Assembly: GCF_900637975.1 (NCBI RefSeq)
Contig: NZ_LR134477.1
Coordinates: 62,001 to 126,000, forward strand
Source of the DNA: Actinomyces viscosus
GTDB taxonomy: Bacteria > Actinomycetota > Actinomycetes > Actinomycetales > Actinomycetaceae
Reading direction: 5' to 3'
Length of the DNA: 64,000 bases
Below are positions 17,976-28,020 of this stretch, piece by piece. Position 1 is the stretch's first letter. Each line of letters opens with the position of its first letter. The notes under the pieces are model-generated. The model saw only the letters and a list, made by a program, of their open reading frames with translations, searched no databases and was not told the origin of the DNA. The translations under genes and the position numbers were made by a program.

Positions 17976-18007
17976 TTGACAGACTTCGGTGATGGTCCGC
18001 ATATGAT
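17976..18007 (+). promoter_or_regulatory. Sigma-70-like promoter of the sulfur-type operon
   Basis: TTGACA at 17976-17981 is followed by CATATG after 18 bases, or TATGAT after 20 bases. It is about 60 bp upstream of the leader peptide start, so the leader would be on a short 5' UTR. Confidence 0.5.
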
Positions 18008-18063
18008 TGCGCCGAACGCGCCGCCGGCACTGGGCCGCGGTCGCACACCCCGAAGGACACACC

Positions 18064-18213
18064 ATGACGAGCACCGGACGCCGCGCCACCGCGCTGCCGC
18101 TCGTCGTACGCACCGCGCGGACTGAGCGCGCCGCTGCGCCCTCCTCGTCCTTCGCCCCCTCACATGCCATGAACCAGCAGGTCATGGCGTGTTGTTGTCG
18201 CTGTATGCCGTAG
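18064..18213 (+). CDS. Cysteine-rich leader peptide (putative attenuator)
   Basis: This 49-codon open frame starts at the ATG 18064, with GAAGGA at 18052-18057, and ends ACCCRCMP-stop, with codons TGT TGT TGT CGC TGT at 18190-18204. Four cysteines in five codons next to the stop would stall ribosomes when charged tRNA-Cys is scarce. Poly-cysteine short ORFs that act as cysteine-responsive attenuators upstream of sulfur genes are described in mycobacteria (established for that group; applied here by analogy). The peptide itself has no recognisable domain. The ABC importer gene follows 173 bp downstream. Confidence 0.7.
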   Translation: MTSTGRRATALPLVVRTARTERAAAPSSSFAPSHAMNQQVMACCCRCMP

Positions 18214-18386
18214 GGCGTCCGTACTCCTGGCAGCCCCCGCATGATCGCGACCCGACGCTTGCACGTCGGGCACGCCCCGGGCCGGCTAGCAGTCCACCTG
18301 TGCGGACGTCCTCACCCCCTCCCAGGGCCGTGAGCGCAGCGACGTCCGTAGCGCGCGGCCACCGAACCGGGACCGAAGGAACTCCT
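18214..18386 (+). promoter_or_regulatory. Attenuator region between leader and importer genes
   Basis: The hairpin CCCGACG-CTTGCA-CGTCGGG lies at 18251-18270, 38 bp after the leader stop. No U-run is present, so control could be Rho-dependent or act by folding over the AAGGA at 18377-18381 that serves the first permease. I could not resolve alternative structures by eye. Confidence 0.4.
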
Positions 18387-19424
18387 GTGTCTGCCGCCTC
18401 TTCAACCCTCCCCGCCACCGCGACCTCCACTGCGGCCCCCACTACCACCCGCGACTCCGACGAGGCTCGCGCCGTCCGCTCCGCCAGGCGCCGCGCCACC
18501 GCGCGATTCGCCCTCACCCGCCTCATCCAAGGCGCCTTCGTCGTCTGGATCGCCGTCACCATCACCTTCATCGGCCTGCACCTGGCCCCCGGCGACATCG
18601 TCGACACCCTCCTGGGCCAGGACCGCGACGACGCCGAGCTGCGCGCTAAGGTCATCGCCGAATGGGGCCTGGACCGCCCGGTCATCGTCCAGTACTTCAG
18701 CTACCTCGCCGGCATCCTGCGCGGCAACTTCGGCACCAGCTACACCCAGCACAAGCCGGTCCTCGACATCTTCACCTCCCAGATCGGCGCTACCCTCCAG
18801 CTGGCCGGAGCGGCCCTGGCGATCGCCGTCGTCGTGTCCCTGAGCCTGTCCCTGTGGCTCGCGGGAAGGCGCGGCACCGCCCGCACCGTCGTGGGCAGTG
18901 CGGAGCTCGCGGTCCTGTCCGTTCCCAGTTTCTGGCTCGGCCTCATCCTGCTGACCGTCTTCTCCTTCCGGCTGCACTGGTTCCCCGTCGTCGGGAACAA
19001 CGGCCTGAGCTCCCTGGTCCTGCCGGCCCTGGCCATCGGGATCCCACAGGGCGCCTACCTCACCCAGGTGCTCCGCGAGGACCTCGACGGCGAGCTGGAG
19101 CGCCCCTACGTCCTGACCGCCCGCTCCCGAGGAGCCTCCCTGGCCCGCACCAAACGGGTCCACGCCCTGCGCCACGCCTCCCTGCCGGCCGTCACCATCG
19201 GAGGGCTCATCGTCGGTGGACTCCTGGGAGGCGCCGCCATCACCGAGGAGGTCTTCGGCCGCCCCGGCCTGGGACACATCGCCGTCAGCGCCGTCCAGAG
19301 CCAGGACATGCCCGTGGTCCTGGGCGTGGCCTTCTTCGCCAGCCTTGTCTTCGTCATCGCCTCCACCCTCGTCGACCTGGCCGCCCTCGCCCTCGACCCG
19401 CGTCTGCGCCAGGCCCGTTCCTGA
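18387..19424 (+). CDS. ABC transporter permease, Opp/Dpp type (DppB-like)
   Basis: This 345-residue inner-membrane subunit of a peptide/nickel-type importer has the N-terminal first-helix region RFALTRLIQGAFVVWIAVTITFIGLHLAPGD with the family LxPGD motif, five further membrane segments, and the EAA-type coupling loop around LTARSRGASLARTKRVHALRHA. The GTG at 18387 follows AAGGA at good spacing. It is the first gene after the cysteine leader and works with the permease and double ATPase that follow. No substrate-binding protein is encoded in the cluster. Confidence 0.85.
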   Translation: MSAASSTLPATATSTAAPTTTRDSDEARAVRSARRRATARFALTRLIQGAFVVWIAVTITFIGLHLAPGDIVDTLLGQDRDDAELRAKVIAEWGLDRPVIVQYFSYLAGILRGNFGTSYTQHKPVLDIFTSQIGATLQLAGAALAIAVVVSLSLSLWLAGRRGTARTVVGSAELAVLSVPSFWLGLILLTVFSFRLHWFPVVGNNGLSSLVLPALAIGIPQGAYLTQVLREDLDGELERPYVLTARSRGASLARTKRVHALRHASLPAVTIGGLIVGGLLGGAAITEEVFGRPGLGHIAVSAVQSQDMPVVLGVAFFASLVFVIASTLVDLAALALDPRLRQARS

Positions 19425-19494
19425 GGCGGGCCCGCCCCGCTCGGAACCTCGACGCCGCCTCAGCATCCCTGCGTCCTCGCCTCAGGAGTCCCTC

Positions 19495-20418
19495 ATGACC
19501 AGCACCACCAACGAATCGACCTCCTTCCGCCTGTCCTCCAGAGCCGCCGGCACCGGCCTGGGCGGAGTCCTCACCCGCCTCGTCCAGCTCAGACGCGCAC
19601 TGCACGTCTCACGCCGCCCCCGCGTCACCACGGTCGTCGCCGCCATCGTCTTCGGAGCGGTCGTCCTGGCAGCCATCGCCCCGGGCCTGTTCACCCGCAC
19701 CGACCCGCTGGCCATCGACGCCCTCCAGTTCAACGAGCCGCCGTCGGCCGAGCACCTGCTGGGCACCGACTACCTCGGGCGCGACCTCCTGGCCCGTGTC
19801 ATTCACGGCGCCCGCTACTCCCTGACCATCGGGCTCGTCGCCACCGCCGTCGCCGTCACCTTCGGCCTGGTCATCGGGCTGCTGGCGGGCATCTCCCCGC
19901 GCTGGCTGGATACGGCCCTGGCGCGCCTCATCGACGTCCTGGCATCCTTCCCCGCGATCCTCCTGGCCCTGGTCGTCATCGGCATCACCGGCACCGGCAT
20001 CGTCAACCTCGCCATCACCCTGGGCATCGCCACGATCCCCACCTACGCCCGGGTGGTGCGCGCCCAGACCCACCGGGTCATCCGCTCCGACTACGTCGCC
20101 CAGGCCCGCACCTTCGGCCTGACCCCCGGACGGCTCGTCCTGCGCCACGTCCTGCCCAACGCTCTGGGGGTCGTCCCCGTCGTCGCCACCATCGAGCTGG
20201 GCGGAGCGATCATCGGCGCCGCCTCCCTGTCCTTCCTCGGGCTCGGACCGCAGCCGCCCACACCCGAGTGGGGCGCCATCCTGGCCGACTCCCGCGACTT
20301 CCTCATGCTCGCCCCCTGGACCGGGATCCTCCCCGGCCTCGTCCTGACCGCCACCGTCATCAGCGCCAACATCCTGGGCCGCGCCATCAAGCGCCGCTAC
20401 GAGAGGAGGAGCGCATGA
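19495..20418 (+). CDS. ABC transporter permease, Opp/Dpp type (DppC-like)
   Basis: This 307-residue second permease shows the DppC-type segment DPLAIDALQFNEPPSAEHLLGTDYLGRDLLARVIHGARYSL before the first core helix, and the coupling loop YVAQARTFGLTPGRLVLRHVLPNAL. The ATG at 19495 follows CAGGAG; reading further upstream enters the previous gene. Its stop codon overlaps the ATPase start by ATGA, so the two are translationally coupled. Confidence 0.87.
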   Translation: MTSTTNESTSFRLSSRAAGTGLGGVLTRLVQLRRALHVSRRPRVTTVVAAIVFGAVVLAAIAPGLFTRTDPLAIDALQFNEPPSAEHLLGTDYLGRDLLARVIHGARYSLTIGLVATAVAVTFGLVIGLLAGISPRWLDTALARLIDVLASFPAILLALVVIGITGTGIVNLAITLGIATIPTYARVVRAQTHRVIRSDYVAQARTFGLTPGRLVLRHVLPNALGVVPVVATIELGGAIIGAASLSFLGLGPQPPTPEWGAILADSRDFLMLAPWTGILPGLVLTATVISANILGRAIKRRYERRSA

Positions 20419-22172
20419 GCGCCCCCACCACCACCCCTGCGCCCACGGCCTCCACCGACGCCGAGAGCCGCCTCATCGAGGTCGAGAACCTCACCGTCAC
20501 CTTCCACCGGCCCGGCGCCGATGGCGGGCACGAGGTGCGGGCCGTGCGCGGCCTGGACCTGACCATCGCCCCCGGAGAGGCCGTCGGCATCGTGGGGGAG
20601 TCCGGGTCCGGCAAGTCCGTCACCGCCCGCACCCTCATCGGCCTGACCGGGGGAGATCCTCAGATCTCCGCCACCCGCCTGGAGGTTGCCGGGCAGGACG
20701 CCACCGACCTGACCGACGCCCAGTGGCGCACCATCCGCGGCCGACGCATCGGGCTCATCCTCCAGGACGCCCTCACCTCACTCGACCCGCTGCGCACCAT
20801 CGGCAAGGAGATCGCCGAGGCTCTGCGCCTGGCCGACGTCGTCAACACCGAGCGCCGGGCCACGGGCGAGCGCCCCCTGTCCGGACGCGCCCTGGCGGCC
20901 GCCGAGCGGGAGCAGGCCATCGCCCTGCTGGAGGAGGTGGGCATCCCCGAGGCCGACCTGCGAGTCGACCAGTACCCCCACGAGCTCTCCGGCGGTCTGC
21001 GCCAACGCGCCCTCATCGCCTCCGCTATCGCCGGACGCCCCGACCTCATCATCGCCGACGAGCCCACCACGGCCCTCGACGTCACCGTCCAGGCCCAGGT
21101 CCTCGACGTCCTGGCGGCCCGCCGCGCCACCGGCTCCGCCCTGCTGCTCATCAGCCACGACCTGGCCGTCGTCGGGCAGGTCTGCGACCGGATCCTGGTG
21201 ATGAAGGACGGGGAGGTCGTCGAGTCCGGCCCCTCCCAGGCCGTCCTGACCAGCCCCCGCCACGCCTACACGCGCCGGCTCCTGGCCGCCGTCCCGTCAG
21301 CCGCCTCCCGCGGGCGGCTCCTGGCCACCGATGCGCGCGCCCCGCAGCGCCAGAACCTCTCCGAGAGCGCCGACGCCGAGCCCCTGCTCGCCGCCCGCGA
21401 CCTCGTCAAGGACTACCCCGGCCCCGGCGGCACGGTGCGCCGCGCCGTCGGCGGTGTCGACGTCGAGGTCCGCCCCGGCCAGACCCTCGGCGTCGTCGGC
21501 GAGTCCGGGTCCGGCAAGTCGACCCTGGCCCGCCTGCTCATCGCGCTCACCGAGCCCGACACCGGCACCATCGCCCTCGACGCCGAGCCCTGGTCCCCGC
21601 TGCCGGACCGCCGCCGTCGCACCCGGCGCCACCGCATCCAGATCATCAACCAGGACCCGATCTCCTCCTTCGACCCGCGCTACAGCGTGCGCGACGTTAT
21701 CGCCGAGCCGCTGCGCTCCCCGGCCGCCGGCCGGCGCCGCCCCGGCCGCGCCCAGGTCGCCGAACGGGTGCGCGAGGTCGCCGAGCTCGTGGGGCTGCCC
21801 CTGGAACGTCTCGACGCCAGCCCGCTGGCGCTCTCCGGCGGGCAGCGTCAGCGCGTCGCCATAGCCCGCGCCCTGGTCACCGAGCCCGACATCCTCATCG
21901 CCGACGAGCCCGTCTCCGCCCTCGACGTGTCCATCCAGGCCCAGATCCTCGACCTGCTGGTCGAGGTCCGCGCCCGCACCGGGGCCGCCATCATCTTCAT
22001 CAGCCACGACCTGGGCGTCGTCCACCACCTCGCCGACGACGTCCTGGTCATGAAGGACGGCCAGGTGGTCGAGTCCGGTGACGTCGACACCGTCTTCACC
22101 CGGCCCGCCCACCCCTACACGCGCCGGCTGCTTGAGGCCCTGCCCTCCCTGCCCGCGGCCGAGGCCGCCTGA
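20415..22172 (+). CDS. Fused double ABC ATPase, Opp/Dpp type (DppD-DppF)
   Basis: This 585-residue protein joins two nucleotide-binding domains. Domain 1 (about 15-285) has Walker A GESGSGKS, signature LSGGLRQRALIA and Walker B LIIADEPTTALDVT. Domain 2 (about 325-575) has GESGSGKS, LSGGQRQRVAIA and ILIADEPVSALDVS. Each ends in the HPYTRRLL-like C-terminal motif of oligopeptide ATPases (HAYTRRLLAA and HPYTRRLLEA). It powers the two upstream permeases. The start overlaps the permease stop by four bases, with AGGAGG just before. Confidence 0.92.
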   Translation: MSAPTTTPAPTASTDAESRLIEVENLTVTFHRPGADGGHEVRAVRGLDLTIAPGEAVGIVGESGSGKSVTARTLIGLTGGDPQISATRLEVAGQDATDLTDAQWRTIRGRRIGLILQDALTSLDPLRTIGKEIAEALRLADVVNTERRATGERPLSGRALAAAEREQAIALLEEVGIPEADLRVDQYPHELSGGLRQRALIASAIAGRPDLIIADEPTTALDVTVQAQVLDVLAARRATGSALLLISHDLAVVGQVCDRILVMKDGEVVESGPSQAVLTSPRHAYTRRLLAAVPSAASRGRLLATDARAPQRQNLSESADAEPLLAARDLVKDYPGPGGTVRRAVGGVDVEVRPGQTLGVVGESGSGKSTLARLLIALTEPDTGTIALDAEPWSPLPDRRRRTRRHRIQIINQDPISSFDPRYSVRDVIAEPLRSPAAGRRRPGRAQVAERVREVAELVGLPLERLDASPLALSGGQRQRVAIARALVTEPDILIADEPVSALDVSIQAQILDLLVEVRARTGAAIIFISHDLGVVHHLADDVLVMKDGQVVESGDVDTVFTRPAHPYTRRLLEALPSLPAAEAA

Positions 22173-22184
22173 GGCGGGGACACG

Positions 22185-23669
22185 ATGAGCACTGACAACA
22201 TCGGCAGCACCGGCGGCCCTGGTAGCTCTGGCAGCGCTGGCAGCCCTGTGAGGGTGCGGCTCGCCGAGCCGGCCGACTACGACGCCGTACGCGCCCTGTT
22301 GCTGCGGGCCTACGAGTCCCGCTTCTGGATCACCTCCGCCTACCGGTCCATGCTCCTGGACATCGAGGGGCACGTGGCCCGCTCCCGCCCCGACGGTCAC
22401 GGCGGGCAGACCGGCGGGGAGGACCTCCTCCTGGCGGTCGACGGCGAGGCGATCCTCGGCGCCGTCTTCGTCCCGAGGGACACGCACACCGGACCCGACG
22501 GCGCGGTGGAGCAGTCCTTCGGCCGCCTCGGCGTCGACCCGGCCGCTGCGGGCCGCGGCGTCGCTCGCACCCTCGTGGAGCACGTCGAGGACCTGGCCCG
22601 AGACCGTGGAGCCGAGCGCATCGCCATTCACTCCGGCCCCCAGATGCACGGCGCCCACCGCATGTACGAGCACCTCGGTTACCGGCGCCGCCCCGAGCGC
22701 GAGGACCTCGTCGTCGACTCCGGGCAACGGCTGCTCGTCTACACCCGCGAGCTGGACCGCTCCGATGACGTCACCGGCGTCTTCGGACAGGCCGACCTCC
22801 CTGTGGCCTCCGGTCGCTACCGGCTACTTGCCTCCGCCGCCGACGACTGGTCCCGCCTGCAGGCCATCGTCCTGCGCCTGACCGGTCTCGATCAGCACGT
22901 GGCGATCGAGTGGACCGACGACGGCGCTGCCGGCACTGCTACAGGCCCGGTCGTGCCGCCAGCCGTCTACGACTCTCTCACCGACCGACGCATCAGCTCA
23001 GATGGCTACCTGCTGTCTTATGAGTGGGAGACGGTGTGGCGGTCGTTGCATTCGGTGGGGGCTGTGGATCTGTATCCGGTGGATCTGCGTGATGAGATTG
23101 ATGCGTTGAATCAGCAGCTGTTTGATGATGTGAATAATGGTCCGTACAAGGTGTTGTTCGCTGGTTCTCTGGGGGCTGCCAGGGTGGCGAAGGGGGTGTG
23201 GGAGGCCAGGCTTGCGGAGCTGGACTTTCGGTTGGCTTCTCGTCGGTACCTGTTCGGGGAGAGGTTGACGGGCTCCGATGTGCGGTTGTTTGTCACGTTG
23301 GCGTCGTTTGATCAGGGTTATCGGCCGTCGTTCCCGGCTGAGCTGGGTGCGGCGGCGCGGATCACTGACTTCCCGAACCTGTGGGCCTACGCCCGCGACC
23401 TGCACGCCACCCCCGGATTCGCCACGCAGCGCGAGGACCGTGCCAACGGGATCCTGCCGCGCAAGGACGGCACCTGGCGCAGCGCCTTCGGCGAGCCCGG
23501 GGACGGCAAACCGGTCGACGGCAACCCCACCGAGCGCTGGAACGCCCCCGCGAACCGCGAGCACCTGGGCGGCTCACCCCTGTTCTCCGGGCCCGGCGGA
23601 GCCGGCAGCTGGGAGCAGCTGCGCGGATGGACCGAGGCCCGACGCGCCGGCCGGATCACCGGGCTCTGA
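22185..23669 (+). CDS. GNAT acetyltransferase fused to a Cys-less glutathionyl-hydroquinone-reductase-like domain
   Basis: This 494-residue protein begins 12 bp after the ATPase. Residues 22-190 are a GNAT domain with the acetyl-CoA loop RLGVDPAAAGRGVARTL (114-130). Residues 205-410 align by eye with Xi-class glutathione transferases (glutathionyl-hydroquinone reductases): RYRLLAS, DLYPVDLRDEIDALN, VNNGPYK, RYLFGERLTGSDVRLFVTL and FPNLWAYARDLHATPGF. The catalytic CPW of that family is replaced by D220-D221-W222, so thiol chemistry is unlikely. The remaining role may be binding a thiol conjugate that the GNAT acetylates (inference). Codon use changes abruptly at about 22985-23365. Function not established. 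Confidence 0.75.
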   Translation: MSTDNIGSTGGPGSSGSAGSPVRVRLAEPADYDAVRALLLRAYESRFWITSAYRSMLLDIEGHVARSRPDGHGGQTGGEDLLLAVDGEAILGAVFVPRDTHTGPDGAVEQSFGRLGVDPAAAGRGVARTLVEHVEDLARDRGAERIAIHSGPQMHGAHRMYEHLGYRRRPEREDLVVDSGQRLLVYTRELDRSDDVTGVFGQADLPVASGRYRLLASAADDWSRLQAIVLRLTGLDQHVAIEWTDDGAAGTATGPVVPPAVYDSLTDRRISSDGYLLSYEWETVWRSLHSVGAVDLYPVDLRDEIDALNQQLFDDVNNGPYKVLFAGSLGAARVAKGVWEARLAELDFRLASRRYLFGERLTGSDVRLFVTLASFDQGYRPSFPAELGAAARITDFPNLWAYARDLHATPGFATQREDRANGILPRKDGTWRSAFGEPGDGKPVDGNPTERWNAPANREHLGGSPLFSGPGGAGSWEQLRGWTEARRAGRITGL

Positions 23670-23829
23670 GGCCCTTCGGGCCACTCGTCCCGGGAGAAGA
23701 CGGGCAAGGATCTGGGACAGTATCTGTGACAGTCTGTAACAGCCTTTAACGACGCTGCCCGAGAAGCCCCCTGAAAGACGGGAACGGCCCGCCCGGCCGA
23801 GCCCACCGTACCCCGACCGAGGACCCGCC
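23670..23829. other. Spacer inside the putative sulfur operon
   Basis: GGCCCTTCGGGCC forms a short hairpin right after the fusion gene stop. Then three imperfect 10-bp repeats (CTGGGACAGT, CTGTGACAGT, CTGTAACAGC) precede the amidohydrolase. An internal promoter or operator is possible. Confidence 0.4.
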
Positions 23830-25326
23830 ATGACCGATCAGCCCACCGAGCCCGCCGAGCCCACTGCGTCCGCTGCCCCCGCCGGAGGAGCCGCCCACTG
23901 GACCACCCCTCCCACCGACGGCGGTGAGCGCCTCGATGGACGCTCGGCCGCCTTGGTGAGCGCCGACCGGGTCCTCACCGGCCGGCGCGGCCAGGCCGAG
24001 GGCAGCCTCGAGACCGTCGGCATCCAGTCCGACATCCACAGCGAGGCGGAGGAGGCCGAGGCTCTCGTGGCCGGCCGGGGCGGGGCCGTCCTCCTGCGAG
24101 GACGGGACATCCTGGCCGTCGGGACCTCGGCCGAGCTCGAGGGCCGCCTGAGCGAGCTCCTTCCCGACGTCGACCCCCGTGAGATCAGGCGAGTGGACCT
24201 GCCCGGAGCCACTCTCATGCCCGGGCTCATCGAGACCCACGACCACCTGCCCACCTCCGACACCGACGTCGAGTACCCCGACTACGGGCCGCACGAGGTT
24301 GCCCGCCTGACCCTCAACGCCGCCCGCGCCGCGCGCGAGCTGCTCAGCGAGGGCGTCACCAGCGTCCAGTCCCTCGGGGCGCGCCACTACGTTGACGTCG
24401 CCCTGCGCGACGCCGTCGACGCCGGAGACCTGCGCGGGCCTCGAATCATCGCCTCCGGGCCGCAGATCACCACCACCGGCGGGCACGCCCACCACGCCGG
24501 TGGCGCCGCCGACTCCCTGGACGAGATCCGCCACCAGGTCCGCCACCACCACCTCATGGGGGCCGACACGATCAAGGTGATGGCCACCGGCGGCTTCATG
24601 ACCGGAGGCTCCGCCCCCTGGTTCGCCCAGTTCACCACCGAGGAGCTGCGGGTCCTGTTCGACGAGGCGCACCGCCTGGGCAGGTGGACGGCCGCCCACG
24701 CCCACGGCACCCAGGGCATCGAGCGGGCCGTGCGCGCCGGGGTGGACTACATCGCCCACGCCTCCTTCGTCTCGGCGGCCGGGCGCACCGAGTTCGACCC
24801 CCACCTGGCCGACGAGATGGCGCGCGCAGGCGTCTACGTCGACTGCACGATCGTGGCGGGCCTGCCCGGCATCATCGCGGCCGACCCCGCCTTCGCCCCG
24901 CCCGCCCGCCAGCTGTGGGAGCACGGGGTGCGGATCGTCGCCGGCCACGACGCCGGCATCCCCGCCTCCCCGCAGCGCGCCTACGTCGGTGGGCTGAGGG
25001 CCCTGGAGGCCGTGGGACTGCCCCGCACCGAGGTGCTGCTGGCCGCCACCTCCCGGGCCGCCGCCGCCATCGGACGCGCCGGCGTCACCGGGGTGCTGGC
25101 CCCCGGCTTCGAGGCCGACCTCATCGCCGTGGCCGGGGACCCGCGCCAGGACCTGGCCGTCCTGCACGACCTGCGCCTGGTGGTGGCCCGCGGACGCGAG
25201 TTCCGCCCCGACCGGGTCGAGGGCCTGGCCGCCTCCGAGCCACCCACCGAGGAGGCCGGACCCGCCGCGACCCTGGCCGAGTGGCGCGAGCGCAGCGCCC
25301 GCGCCGCCCGCCACCCGGAGGTGTGA
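23830..25326 (+). CDS. Metal-dependent amidohydrolase (prolidase/imidazolonepropionase-like)
   Basis: This 498-residue cytoplasmic amidohydrolase has the binuclear metal site of the superfamily: H137-x-H139 (ETHDH), the carboxylated Lys249 (DTIKVMATGG), His290 or His292 (AAHAHG), His310 (IAHAS) and Asp373 (GHDAG). The nearest relatives by motif are Xaa-Pro dipeptidase-like and N-acyl or peptidyl amide hydrolases. The first 35 residues are low-complexity and the true start could be later. With the upstream acetyltransferase and downstream peptidase it suggests breakdown of imported peptides or N-acyl amino acids. It overlaps the next gene by GTGA. Confidence 0.82.
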   Translation: MTDQPTEPAEPTASAAPAGGAAHWTTPPTDGGERLDGRSAALVSADRVLTGRRGQAEGSLETVGIQSDIHSEAEEAEALVAGRGGAVLLRGRDILAVGTSAELEGRLSELLPDVDPREIRRVDLPGATLMPGLIETHDHLPTSDTDVEYPDYGPHEVARLTLNAARAARELLSEGVTSVQSLGARHYVDVALRDAVDAGDLRGPRIIASGPQITTTGGHAHHAGGAADSLDEIRHQVRHHHLMGADTIKVMATGGFMTGGSAPWFAQFTTEELRVLFDEAHRLGRWTAAHAHGTQGIERAVRAGVDYIAHASFVSAAGRTEFDPHLADEMARAGVYVDCTIVAGLPGIIAADPAFAPPARQLWEHGVRIVAGHDAGIPASPQRAYVGGLRALEAVGLPRTEVLLAATSRAAAAIGRAGVTGVLAPGFEADLIAVAGDPRQDLAVLHDLRLVVARGREFRPDRVEGLAASEPPTEEAGPAATLAEWRERSARAARHPEV

Positions 25327-27167
25327 GCGTGCGCTCCCGGGAGGCCGGGGACGCCTGGGGATCGGCGAGCACCCGGCTGATCGACCTGGCCGACGACTAC
25401 GCCCGCCTCCTGGCCGCGCAGGACCCTGTGGCGGCCGAGGCCACCGGCCTGCCCAGCCGTGCGCTCCTGCCGGAGGTCGGCCCCGAGGCTCTGGCTGAGA
25501 GGAGCGTCGTCGAGCGCAGGCTGCGCCAGCTCGTTCGCGAGGTCGAGGCGCCCCGGTCCGCGAGTGCACCCGGAGCCAGGGGCGACGACGCCGGAGACGA
25601 TGACACGCACAACGCTGCTCCCCGGACCAGCGCCTCTCGGAACGGCGACCCGTGGGACGCAGCGCCCCGGGCGGTGCGGGTCCTGCGCGCCCACCTGCTC
25701 GACCGCCTGGAGACCTCCATCGAGCTCATTGACTCCGGTGACCAGGGCGCCGAGCTCAACATCCTCACCTCGGCCTTCCAACGCGTGAACCGCCGGCTCA
25801 CCGCCCTGCCATCCGGGCCTGGCGGTCCGGGCCGGGCCGCGCCGGACTGGGCGGGCCTGACCGCCAGGTACCGCGCCGCGCCCCGAGCCCTCGCGGGCAT
25901 TCGAGACTCCCTGGCGTCCAGCGCCGCCCAGGGCGTCACGCCTCCCCGCGGCCAGGTCGAGGCCGTCGCCCGGCAGACCGACGAGCTGGCGCGCCTCATG
26001 ACCTCCCGAGCCCACGGCGACCTGGGCGGCTACCCCACCGCGCCGGAGGACGCCCTGGCACGAGACCTTCACAGCGCCGCCGCCGACGCCGCCCGGGCCG
26101 CCGCCGACCTGGGCGTCTACCTGCGCCGTGAGCTGTCCCGGCTCACCTCACCGCGCGAGGGCGTGGGGCTACAGCGCCACGCCCGCTGGGTGCGGCGCAT
26201 GCTTGGCACCTCCTTCGACGCCGCCGAGGTCTACCAGTGGGCGCGCCAGGAGCTGGCCGACGTCGTCGCCGCCCAGGACGCCCTGGCCGCCGAGGTCCTC
26301 GGGCCCGGAGCCCGAGCCACCGACCTCGACGCCCACCTGCGCGCCGATCCCGGCACCGGGATGAGCCCCGAGGACTTCCCGCGCTGGGCCAAGGAGGTGG
26401 CTGACGAAGCCTGGGACACCGTCGTCGGCCGCCTGCTCGACGTGCCCGGCGACCTGGGCCGCCCGGGGGTCCTGCTCGATGCTCCTGGCGGCGGTGTCCA
26501 CTACGAGGAGCCCGACCCCGTCCGCGGGCTTCCCGGCAGGGTCCTGCGCTCCTTCGCCGCCGGTGATGAGACGGTCTGGCCCTGGGCGGAGCGCACGACG
26601 GTCCTGCACGAGTCGGTTCCTGGGCACCACGCCCACTCCGGCGCCCAGAGCCTCGATGACTCCCTGACCACCTGGCAGCGGCACCTGGGGAAGGTCCCCG
26701 GATGCAACGAGGGCTGGGCCCTGTACGCCGAGAGGCTCGCGCTCGAGACCGGGCTGCTGAGCGAGCCGGCCGACCGCTTCGGCTGGCTGGCGGCGAGGCG
26801 CTGGCGGATCGTGAGGATCCTGATCGACCTCGGCGTCCACTCCTGGCTCCCGGTACCGGACGAGATCGCCTCCCTGCCCGGCGCCAGCGGCAGCGCACAG
26901 TGGGACCGGCCCACGGTCGAGGCGGTGCTGCGCGCCCATACGGTCCTGGGGGAGGGCTTCATCCAGTTCGAGGTGGACAAGCAGCTGGGATGGCCGGCCC
27001 AGGGCCTGTCCTACGTGCTCGGCGAGCGGGTGTGGCTGGAGGGACGCTCCCGGGCCCGGCACCGGGCCCGAGCGGCGGGGGAGGAGCTCGACCTGCGGGC
27101 CTTCCACAACTGCGGCATCGGCCTGGGCAGCGTGGGCCTGGACCTCCTGGCCGGCGAGCTCACCTGA
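25323..27167 (+). CDS. DUF885 family metallopeptidase-like protein
   Basis: This 614-residue helical protein of the DUF885 family carries HESVPGHHAHSGAQ near residue 429, the zinc-binding HExxxGHH-type motif that relates the family to M3/M32-like peptidases, followed by a second helix with EGWALYAERLALE supplying another probable metal Glu. The GTG at 25323 overlaps the amidohydrolase stop, so the genes are coupled. A Gly/Ser/Ala-rich insert at about 75-100 is strain-specific in appearance. It is likely a cytoplasmic oligopeptidase acting on imported peptides. A hairpin follows at 27169. Confidence 0.78.
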   Translation: MSVRSREAGDAWGSASTRLIDLADDYARLLAAQDPVAAEATGLPSRALLPEVGPEALAERSVVERRLRQLVREVEAPRSASAPGARGDDAGDDDTHNAAPRTSASRNGDPWDAAPRAVRVLRAHLLDRLETSIELIDSGDQGAELNILTSAFQRVNRRLTALPSGPGGPGRAAPDWAGLTARYRAAPRALAGIRDSLASSAAQGVTPPRGQVEAVARQTDELARLMTSRAHGDLGGYPTAPEDALARDLHSAAADAARAAADLGVYLRRELSRLTSPREGVGLQRHARWVRRMLGTSFDAAEVYQWARQELADVVAAQDALAAEVLGPGARATDLDAHLRADPGTGMSPEDFPRWAKEVADEAWDTVVGRLLDVPGDLGRPGVLLDAPGGGVHYEEPDPVRGLPGRVLRSFAAGDETVWPWAERTTVLHESVPGHHAHSGAQSLDDSLTTWQRHLGKVPGCNEGWALYAERLALETGLLSEPADRFGWLAARRWRIVRILIDLGVHSWLPVPDEIASLPGASGSAQWDRPTVEAVLRAHTVLGEGFIQFEVDKQLGWPAQGLSYVLGERVWLEGRSRARHRARAAGEELDLRAFHNCGIGLGSVGLDLLAGELT

Positions 27168-27196: not shown

Positions 27197-27390
27197 GGCC
27201 TGACAGGGCCACCCAGGGCCGGGATCGTGCGGAGCAGGCCGTGGTAGCGTCGAAAACGAGCGCCCGGTGAGGCTGCGGTGAGGCCGGTCCTCTCCTGTCG
27301 TCTCCCGCGGGCCTCCACGAGGTGCGGTCGCGGCTGCCGTCGATGCCGTCGTCGGCAGCCGGGAGCCGCTCGATCCTGAAAGGACAGATG

Positions 27391-28020
27391 ATGGAGTACA
27401 CCCAGCTCGGCACCACGGACATCACCATCCCCAGGCTGTGCGTCGGAGGGATGAGCTTCGGCAAGGTCTTCCCGGACTTCCACCAGTGGGTCATCGACCA
27501 GGAGGCCACCCAGGCCGTCATCGCCCGAGCCCTGGAGAAGGGCGTCAACTTCATCGACACCGCCAACGTCTACGCCTACGGCACGAGCGAGGAGTTCATC
27601 GGGACCTCGCTGAAGAACCTCGGTGTCAGGCGCGAGGACGTGGTGCTGGCCTCCAAGGTCTACTTCAACGAGGGGCACCTGTCGCGCGCGGCCATCGAGC
27701 GCGAGACCGACATGCCCATCATCGAGCGCGTCGCCTCTGTCGCCGAGCGTCACGGGGCGCCCATGTCCGACGTCGCCTTGGCCTGGCTGTGGGCCAAGGG
27801 CGTGGCCGCCCCCATCGTCGGCTGCTCGCGTCCGAGCCGCCTCGACGACGCCGTGCGGGCCCTCGACCTGAGGCTCACCGAGGAGGAGGTCGCCTTCCTC
27901 GAGGAGCCCTACCGGGCCCACGAGCTCGTGGGCCCGCTGGCCCGCCCCGGGGAGGGCGTGCTGCCCGGCTCGACGACCGATCGGGTGACGTCGACCGGGC
28001 AGGACGCCTCACAGCGATGA
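27391..28020 (+). pseudogene. Aldo/keto reductase with internal deletion
   Basis: The frame encodes 209 residues where the family has about 320-330. The N-terminal part (YTQLGTTDITIPRLCVGGMSFG, ANVYAYGTSEEFIG with the catalytic Tyr, and ASKVYFNEGHLSR with the Lys) and the C-terminal part (HGAPMSDVALAWLWAKGVAAPIVGCSRPSRLDDAV) are well preserved. Between AIERE and DMPIIERV about 110 residues of the barrel, including the catalytic His, are missing without a frame change. An in-frame deletion is the likely cause and the product cannot form the barrel. AAAGGA precedes ATG 27391. The 3' end overlaps the convergent ABC permease by 12 nt. Confidence 0.75.

Follow-up and report, generated by a model that had tools for sequence, protein, structure and literature searches.

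In a 64,000-nucleotide stretch of the Actinomyces viscosus chromosome (hereafter the window), an open reading frame (ORF) of 49 codons that ends in a run of Cys codons stands directly upstream of an operon for an Opp/Dpp-type importer, a fusion of a GNAT acetyltransferase with a glutathione S-transferase (GST), an amidohydrolase and a DUF885 protein. Judged from sequence, the leader ORF is very likely a cysteine-sensing attenuator and the operon is likely to serve sulfur or cysteine salvage. We put the probability of the whole explanation, in which a Cys leader controls a salvage module for blocked cysteine that has been rearranged in this strain, at roughly 0.7. When charged Cys-tRNA is scarce, ribosomes would stall at the run of Cys codons close ahead of the stop, and expression of the operon would rise; the importer would take up peptides or conjugates that contain blocked cysteine, and the N-acetyltransferase, Xi-like GSTs and the amidohydrolase or peptidase would free the cysteine by hydrolysis and thiol-dependent cleavage of S bonds. 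In the window strain, recombination between two GST genes, or collapse of the assembly across them, would have taken out a substrate-binding protein (SBP) and the catalytic head of one GST.

The leader ORF and its counterparts

The leader ORF runs from an ATG at 18064 to a TAG at 18213 (all features given here lie on the forward strand of the window), and its predicted translation is MTSTGRRATALPLVVRTARTERAAAPSSSFAPSHAMNQQVMACCCRCMP*, the asterisk marking the stop. Its tail, TGT TGT TGT CGC TGT ATG CCG TAG, would give the peptide end CCCRCMP*, with the Cys run at 18190-18204, and a ribosome-binding site, GAAGGA (18052-18057), ends 6 bases before the ATG. The first-pass annotation of this DNA had described a 49-codon ORF with a good ribosome site and a Cys-rich end, and its coordinates and tail can be read in the sequence. 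A short ORF that ends in Cys codons directly upstream of an operon is the arrangement looked for in an attenuator, and the ribosome site speaks against a leaderless transcript of the mycobacterial kind. A promoter had been proposed as well: TTGACA (17976) and TATGAT (18002) are present at 17976-18007, and TTGAC with a -10-like hexamer is recognisable in all five aligned sequences (the window and four relatives). The two boxes are 20 bases apart, however, and a scan for promoters with a 16-18-base spacer found none at the leader.

Within the genus, the leader motif (at most two mismatches) occurs in 5 of 49 genomes, all five of which hold the operon or remnants of it. They are the same genomes, minus G005, as the six in which the GNAT-GST protein is matched at E<1e-19 (the window's own, G000, and G023, G008, G005, G026 and G046); weaker matches in further genomes of the genus are other GNAT or GST genes, including the GST of a second Opp operon described below. 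Loss of the Cys run from orthologous loci, which the annotation had named as an argument against itself, was not seen: the run is kept in all five aligned sequences, identically in four of them, and AAGGA precedes the leader in all five. The fifth sequence, G008, reads TGT TGT CGC TGC TGT, and its frame extends beyond the usual stop. The four close sequences align without gaps in the leader and with several single-base gaps just behind it, and in G026 and G046 the leader is kept ahead of a largely deleted importer.

Two other loci of the same chromosome (3.49 Mb, a single contig) have leaders of this make. One leader, MMATTVMRTMFSAFSVPSAPCAPMCCCCRCR (G000:C1:1438595-1438690; AGGAGG upstream, tail APMCCCCRCR), lies 248 bases ahead of cysK, which was called with TIGR01136 at 411.6 bits against a cut-off of 344.15; similar frames, compared over the short frame alone, occur in G001, G007, G010, G011, G023 and G026. 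The other, MAKRMWSCCCR* (L130 5957-5992; G000:C1 2834956-2834991), is preceded by AAGGAG and lies 60 bases before permease C of a second Opp operon. Because leaders of the same kind precede both cysK and this operon, the assignment of the window leader as a cysteine-sensing attenuator, proposed in the annotation and strengthened by the conserved run, is very likely correct. Five further genomes of the genus have a counterpart of this operon (L188-L192), which begins with a leader M..RMCCCCR* and continues with permease C, permease B, SBP, double ATPase and GST; Pfam domains were assigned in L188, whose GST has CPWCRR. The Cys codons of this leader and the bases past its stop read GCTGTCG-loop-CGACAGC in 6 of 6 genomes. 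In the window genome a GST of this kind lies about 11 kb downstream of the second Opp ATPase, and a DUF4011/AAA protein with an MTES_1575-type nuclease domain (L130 12308-16036) is encoded between that operon and the GST. A search of the genome for TGT-rich Cys runs gave 12 matches against 15 in the control, and only the window leader looked leader-like; short frames with such runs near the stop also occur at L156 and L161. A separate pattern search also hit the cysK leader. At a sulfate-reduction locus (L165), two Cys-tailed ORFs on the minus strand were not judged to be leaders.

Beyond the genus, a search with an alignment (A1, four sequences) of the intact partner GST found in relatives, here called GST2, yielded 50 loci: 22 from Bifidobacteriaceae, 21 from other Actinomycetota, 6 titled Proteobacteria and 1 titled Clostridiales. 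In many of them genes for permeases, ATPase, SBP, GNAT(-GST) and amidohydrolase are present, and their order varies. On reading, we judged a Cys leader credible at 11 of the 21 actinomycetotal loci outside Bifidobacteriaceae (L078, L079, L086, L090, L100, L108, L109, L115, L118, L120 and L122); L090 is G023 of the genus itself, and L079 with L109 and L086 with L108 each come from one metagenome-assembled genome. The leader of Ancrocorticia populi is MRKSMLTAQLSINCASACCCRMCCR, with GAGGGG upstream, and another from beyond the genus is MFAFLRLGVDSAARMCASCCCR, with AGGAGG upstream. ORFs with at least three Cys in the last ten codons were present in 12 of 73 upstream regions, where the rate of 0.036 in 4294 random 700-mers predicts 2.6; at least four Cys in the last twelve codons were found in 7 of 73 sense and 2 of 73 antisense regions (random rate 0.011). 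Counted over their full length, 13 leaders (among them the weak L097, L101 and L103) write Cys as TGT 43 times and as TGC 18 times; in the window operon all 4 Cys codons are TGC, and in five other window genes TGC outnumbers TGT by 30 to 4.

Several candidates were left uncounted among the 11: L095, an ambiguous Cys-rich ORF that overlaps the GST2 frame out of frame; L091, upstream of the ATPase match and within permease sequence; L099, which is weak; and L101, L103 and L097, with just two Cys near the stop. L077, L114 and L119 have no operon start to scan, and at L091 the scan covered 250 bases. As a separate observation, the leader MCMCPVCCMCCR* of Acidipropionibacterium (P0041/L078) is Cys-rich and precedes a GST2 that has Ser at the place of the active-site Cys.

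Operon genes, sulfur content and a chimeric GST

The gene list given by the first-pass annotation is borne out by Pfam domains. Opp/Dpp-type permeases B (18387-19424, 345 residues, GTG start with AAGGA upstream) and C (19495-20418, 307 residues), both with BPD_transp_1, are followed by a double ABC ATPase (20415-22172, 585 residues; ABC_tran twice, oligo_HPY), the GNAT-GST fusion (22185-23669; GNAT, GST_C_2), a PF01979 amidohydrolase (Amidohydro_1, 23830-25326), whose closest sequence match among solved chains is L-arginine carboxypeptidase Cc2672, and the DUF885 protein (PF05960, 25323-27167, start codon assumed). As the annotation described, the genes are close-packed, some of them overlapping; no SBP is encoded in the window operon. 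Membership is only possible for a shortened aldo-keto reductase behind it (27388-28020), which is represented by two separate matches, 400 bases apart, in L033 and apparently lacks about 130 middle residues found in G023.

The products of the operon are poor in Cys and Met, as would be expected of proteins made under sulfur shortage; sulfur sparing has been described for a biodesulfurizing Rhodococcus (PMC8557817). Together the six proteins have 4 Cys and 15 internal Met among their 2843 residues, or 0.67%; the figure is 2.51% for 163 other ORFs of the genome, which were picked by length and codon-position GC and may include some non-genes; the lowest of 108 six-ORF blocks has 1.15%. Both permeases rank below all 163 ORFs, the ATPase above 3, the GNAT-GST protein, which has no Cys residue at all, above 4, and the DUF885 protein above 5. 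Elsewhere in the genome, Opp-gene matches at four sites mostly have 1.5-4.5%, and the modules of relatives have 0 to 1.8% of aligned residues. GST sulfur was counted in the 108 proteins of 300-410 residues among 120 matches listed: the 83 with a CGW motif average 0.41% Cys plus Met, 64 of them having one Cys and 70 no internal Met, while 23 Xi GSTs of the CPWA type from related genomes contain 2.0% over aligned residues (Cys 0.99%, Met 1.02%).

The GST part of the window fusion joins the head of one GST to the tail of another. In G008 the order of genes is GNAT with a GST remnant, SBP and GST2 (AGCGWSRR), and in G023 it is GNAT-GST1, SBP and GST2, split across two contigs. The window GST tracks GST1 of G023 to about 23010, stands at much the same distance from GST1 and GST2 over 23070-23430, where the crossover lies, and tracks GST2 past 23430 (59/60 against 36/54 in the first block). 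Because it passes from GST1 to GST2, the SBP and the GST2 head are gone; at the place of the AGCGWSRR of relatives the window has ASAADDWSR, and the active-site Cys is lost. The same chimeric form is found in metagenome protein P0001; P0002, which comes from another species, is also a chimera, and P0004, which is the same as P0001 up to that point, is not chimeric, so that either recombination recurs or assemblies collapse the repeat. In the window, too, the two GST genes of the module may have recombined and so shortened it, or the assembly may have collapsed at this place. A GNAT-GST fusion that keeps the CGW motif also exists, in the 532-residue protein P0014.

With neither an SBP nor an active-site Cys in its GST, the window operon could be a decaying remnant that is useless in this strain, an explanation that we consider unlikely though worth serious attention. 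No orthologous SBP was found elsewhere in the window genome, where the four weak matches have 26-34% identity (the best match at 29%, another at 34% over 146 residues), and the further deletions of the module in G026, G046 and G005 and the shortened aldo-keto reductase fit decay. However, the reading frames of the permeases, ATPase, amidohydrolase and DUF885 protein are unbroken and share 89-97% identity with those of G023, and the SBP of the second Opp operon might stand in for the lost one. The chimera might also have arisen in assembly, by collapse of the stretch that the two GSTs share, to which the metagenome forms P0001 and P0006 point as well.

Proposed function and the evidence on either side

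The first-pass annotation held that the operon imports and breaks down cysteine-containing peptides or conjugates when cysteine is short. A role in sulfur or cysteine acquisition is supported by the sulfur-poor proteins and by some of the genes that neighbour GST2 in relatives; the more specific substrates named (compounds derived from mycothiol or glutathione, and S-alkyl cysteines) are not distinguished by the sequence. The neighbours at L037 are a PatB-type C-S lyase, MetX (homoserine O-acetyltransferase, over its cut-off) and an ORF like O-acetylhomoserine sulfhydrylase; L076 encodes an amino-acid importer, its permease and ATPase most like cystine models but under the cut-offs, and at L091 there is an SsuA-like SBP, also below cut-off. 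At L075 (Pseudothauera) they are a TonB receptor, a GNAT and a histidinol-phosphate-type aminotransferase, which is not a sulfur gene. Against the TIGR04028 and GsiB-type families the SBP of G008 scores 239.5 bits (cut-off 468.5) and 114.5 bits (cut-off 594). It and the SBP of G063 group with peptide, nickel and GsiB-like proteins, and neither exceeds the cut-off of any family. TIGR04028 and TIGR04027 matched in 85 and 92 of 98 genomes, with scores that nearly always fell short of the cut-off, and their neighbourhoods were dropped.

GST2 is nearest to the Xi class by sequence, and a model of the GST2 of a relative (P0010; mean pLDDT 84.9) has Xi-class GSTs as its best Foldseek matches (4pts, E 1.5e-23; 3ppu; 3m1g). 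Its motif is CGWxRR, mostly CGW[SAN]RR, and not the CPWA of the Xi class. A Xi-class enzyme from C. glutamicum acts as a reductase of mycothiolyl-hydroquinone and is important under oxidative stress (PMC6815410), and this likeness in sequence and fold would suit a detoxification operon. There the leader would still be a Cys attenuator, but the importer, the GNAT and the Xi-type GSTs would deal with thiol adducts or with conjugates of quinones, and cysteine would be sensed because such adducts drain the thiol pool. We regard this as quite improbable: the importer in the same operon and the sulfur-poverty of its proteins fit nutrition better, and sulfur-metabolism genes are among the GST2 neighbours.

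A number of results weigh against cysteine salvage under attenuator control. On the side of the leader, no convincing leader was seen at the 20 scannable loci of the 22 from Bifidobacteriaceae, although many carry the module. Leaders were also absent from the 6 proteobacterial loci and the clostridial one. The antisense control still held ORFs with at least three Cys in the last ten codons in 5 of 73 regions, and for two Cys in the last eight codons there was no difference (19 sense and 20 antisense of 73). The annotation had seen a hairpin behind the leader. At or after its stop, the minimum-energy fold does contain a helix of 12 pairs between 18213-18224 and 18300-18311 (the stretch as a whole has a z-score of -1.4), but with 96.6% of cells paired its covariation is not above that of shuffles. 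A scan behind the leader found no intrinsic terminator, helices that use the Cys codons are reached by at least 17 of 100 shuffles for 16 of 18 leaders, and the comparison of alternative folds (the window's ribosome-at-stop state left out), with covariation and Cys-codon helices, gave nothing firm. An Rfam scan of the window returned no match over gathering scores.

On the side of the operon, the window copy may not work as it stands, given that the SBP and a catalytic GST are missing, and the GST2 of Acidipropionibacterium has replaced its Cys by Ser. The amidohydrolase, at 1.21%, is less extreme in sulfur content, as 15 of the 163 ORFs are poorer still. Over 438 aligned residues the SBP of the second Opp operon has neither Cys nor Met, and among SBPs sulfur-poverty is therefore not a specific sign. 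CPW GSTs, 21 of the 108 proteins counted, are also fairly sulfur-poor at 0.87% (4 had neither motif), and the idea that the leader marks loci of lower sulfur content was rejected, as loci with and without it did not differ. The window genome has cysK, two PAPS-reductase-family matches and an MshC-like match below cut-off, and may make its own cysteine, in which case the module would be a back-up.

A broader form of the salvage reading can be put forward tentatively, and we hold it to be somewhat less probable than its negation: a sulfur-starvation system of Actinomycetota and some Proteobacteria, in which an Opp-type importer and a nearly sulfur-free CGW GST would free cysteine by reductively cutting C-S or S-S bonds of imported blocked cysteine or of glutathione or mycothiol conjugates, under the control of Cys leaders in Actinomycetaceae and Propionibacteriaceae. 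If this is true, a function could be assigned to a GST/Opp gene set that recurs in Actinomycetota (Actinomyces, Ancrocorticia, Bifidobacterium, Propionibacteriaceae), and cysteine attenuation would extend from biosynthesis genes to import and salvage. It would also be a clear case of proteins purged of sulfur, since they are made when sulfur is short, and the setting could be bacteria that live on host or plant thiol conjugates.

Two explanations concern the leader itself. The similarity among the four close genus sequences covers the peptide beyond its Cys codons, as it would if the ORF encoded a working small peptide, for example one that binds metal, and no sensor. We think this very improbable: leaders from outside the genus have nothing in common but the Cys run near the stop, except for pairs of close relatives such as L079/L086 and L120/L122, a leader of the same kind stands ahead of cysK, and Cys-rich leaders of actinobacteria have been predicted or cited as attenuators (PMC1262725, PMC4633059, PMC9094748). 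That the leader is a chance ORF in a GC-rich genome, before an ordinary peptide or nickel importer, is hardly credible even though the permeases' best NCBIfam matches are nickel and peptide importers (below cut-off), 3.6% of random 700-mers hold such ORFs, and 255,410 bases of the window genome contain two ORFs besides the window leader with at least four Cys in the last ten codons, because all five genus genomes with the motif also hold the operon or its remnants, the ribosome site is kept throughout the alignment, and the leaders are rich in TGT while window genes mostly use TGC, the cysK leader being of the same make.

Relation to described systems

The regulator is of a known kind, and no description of the gene module was found in searches of open-licence papers. 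Poly-cysteine leader ORFs of mycobacteria are leaderless and stand ahead of, for example, cysA2 and nirA (PMC13236596, PMC9094748, PMC4633059). They have the same Cys cluster near the ORF end and the same position upstream of sulfur genes, whereas the window has a 49-codon ORF with a ribosome site before an importer, GST and amidohydrolase set. The leaders predicted ahead of cys operons of Mycobacterium and P. acnes and of cbs of B. longum (PMC1262725) share the Cys codons near the stop and the lack of a conserved terminator; they differ in preceding biosynthesis genes, not an importer-salvage module. The Streptomyces lividans metL leader, which ends in ...ARCMCRRMCAF* before metNIQ and is listed by its authors as methionine-dependent (PMC8079986), likewise precedes an importer for sulfur amino acids, with no typical terminator. 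Its transcript is leaderless, however, and its importer is MetNIQ, not of the Opp type seen in the window.

The annotation had also likened the operon to the salvage of S-modified cysteines in Bacillus, where the yxe pathway includes an importer and the deacetylase is of the M20 type. That pathway treats S-(2-succino)cysteine by N-acetylation, C-S cleavage and deacetylation (PMC9706529). Neither a flavin monooxygenase nor a succino (2SL) lyase is among the Pfam domains of the window operon. The likeness holds as a functional analogy, with an N-acetyltransferase and an ABC importer present, the latter of Opp type and without an SBP in the window. It does not extend to the importer type, to the amidohydrolase, which is PF01979 and not M20-type, or to the C-S cleaving enzyme, in whose place there is a GST. 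To MstX, the Xi-class mycothiol S-transferase of C. glutamicum, GST2 is similar in family, fold and the possession of one active-site Cys; MstX has CPWA where GST2 mostly has CGW[SAN]RR and the window GST no Cys, and the operon contexts differ.

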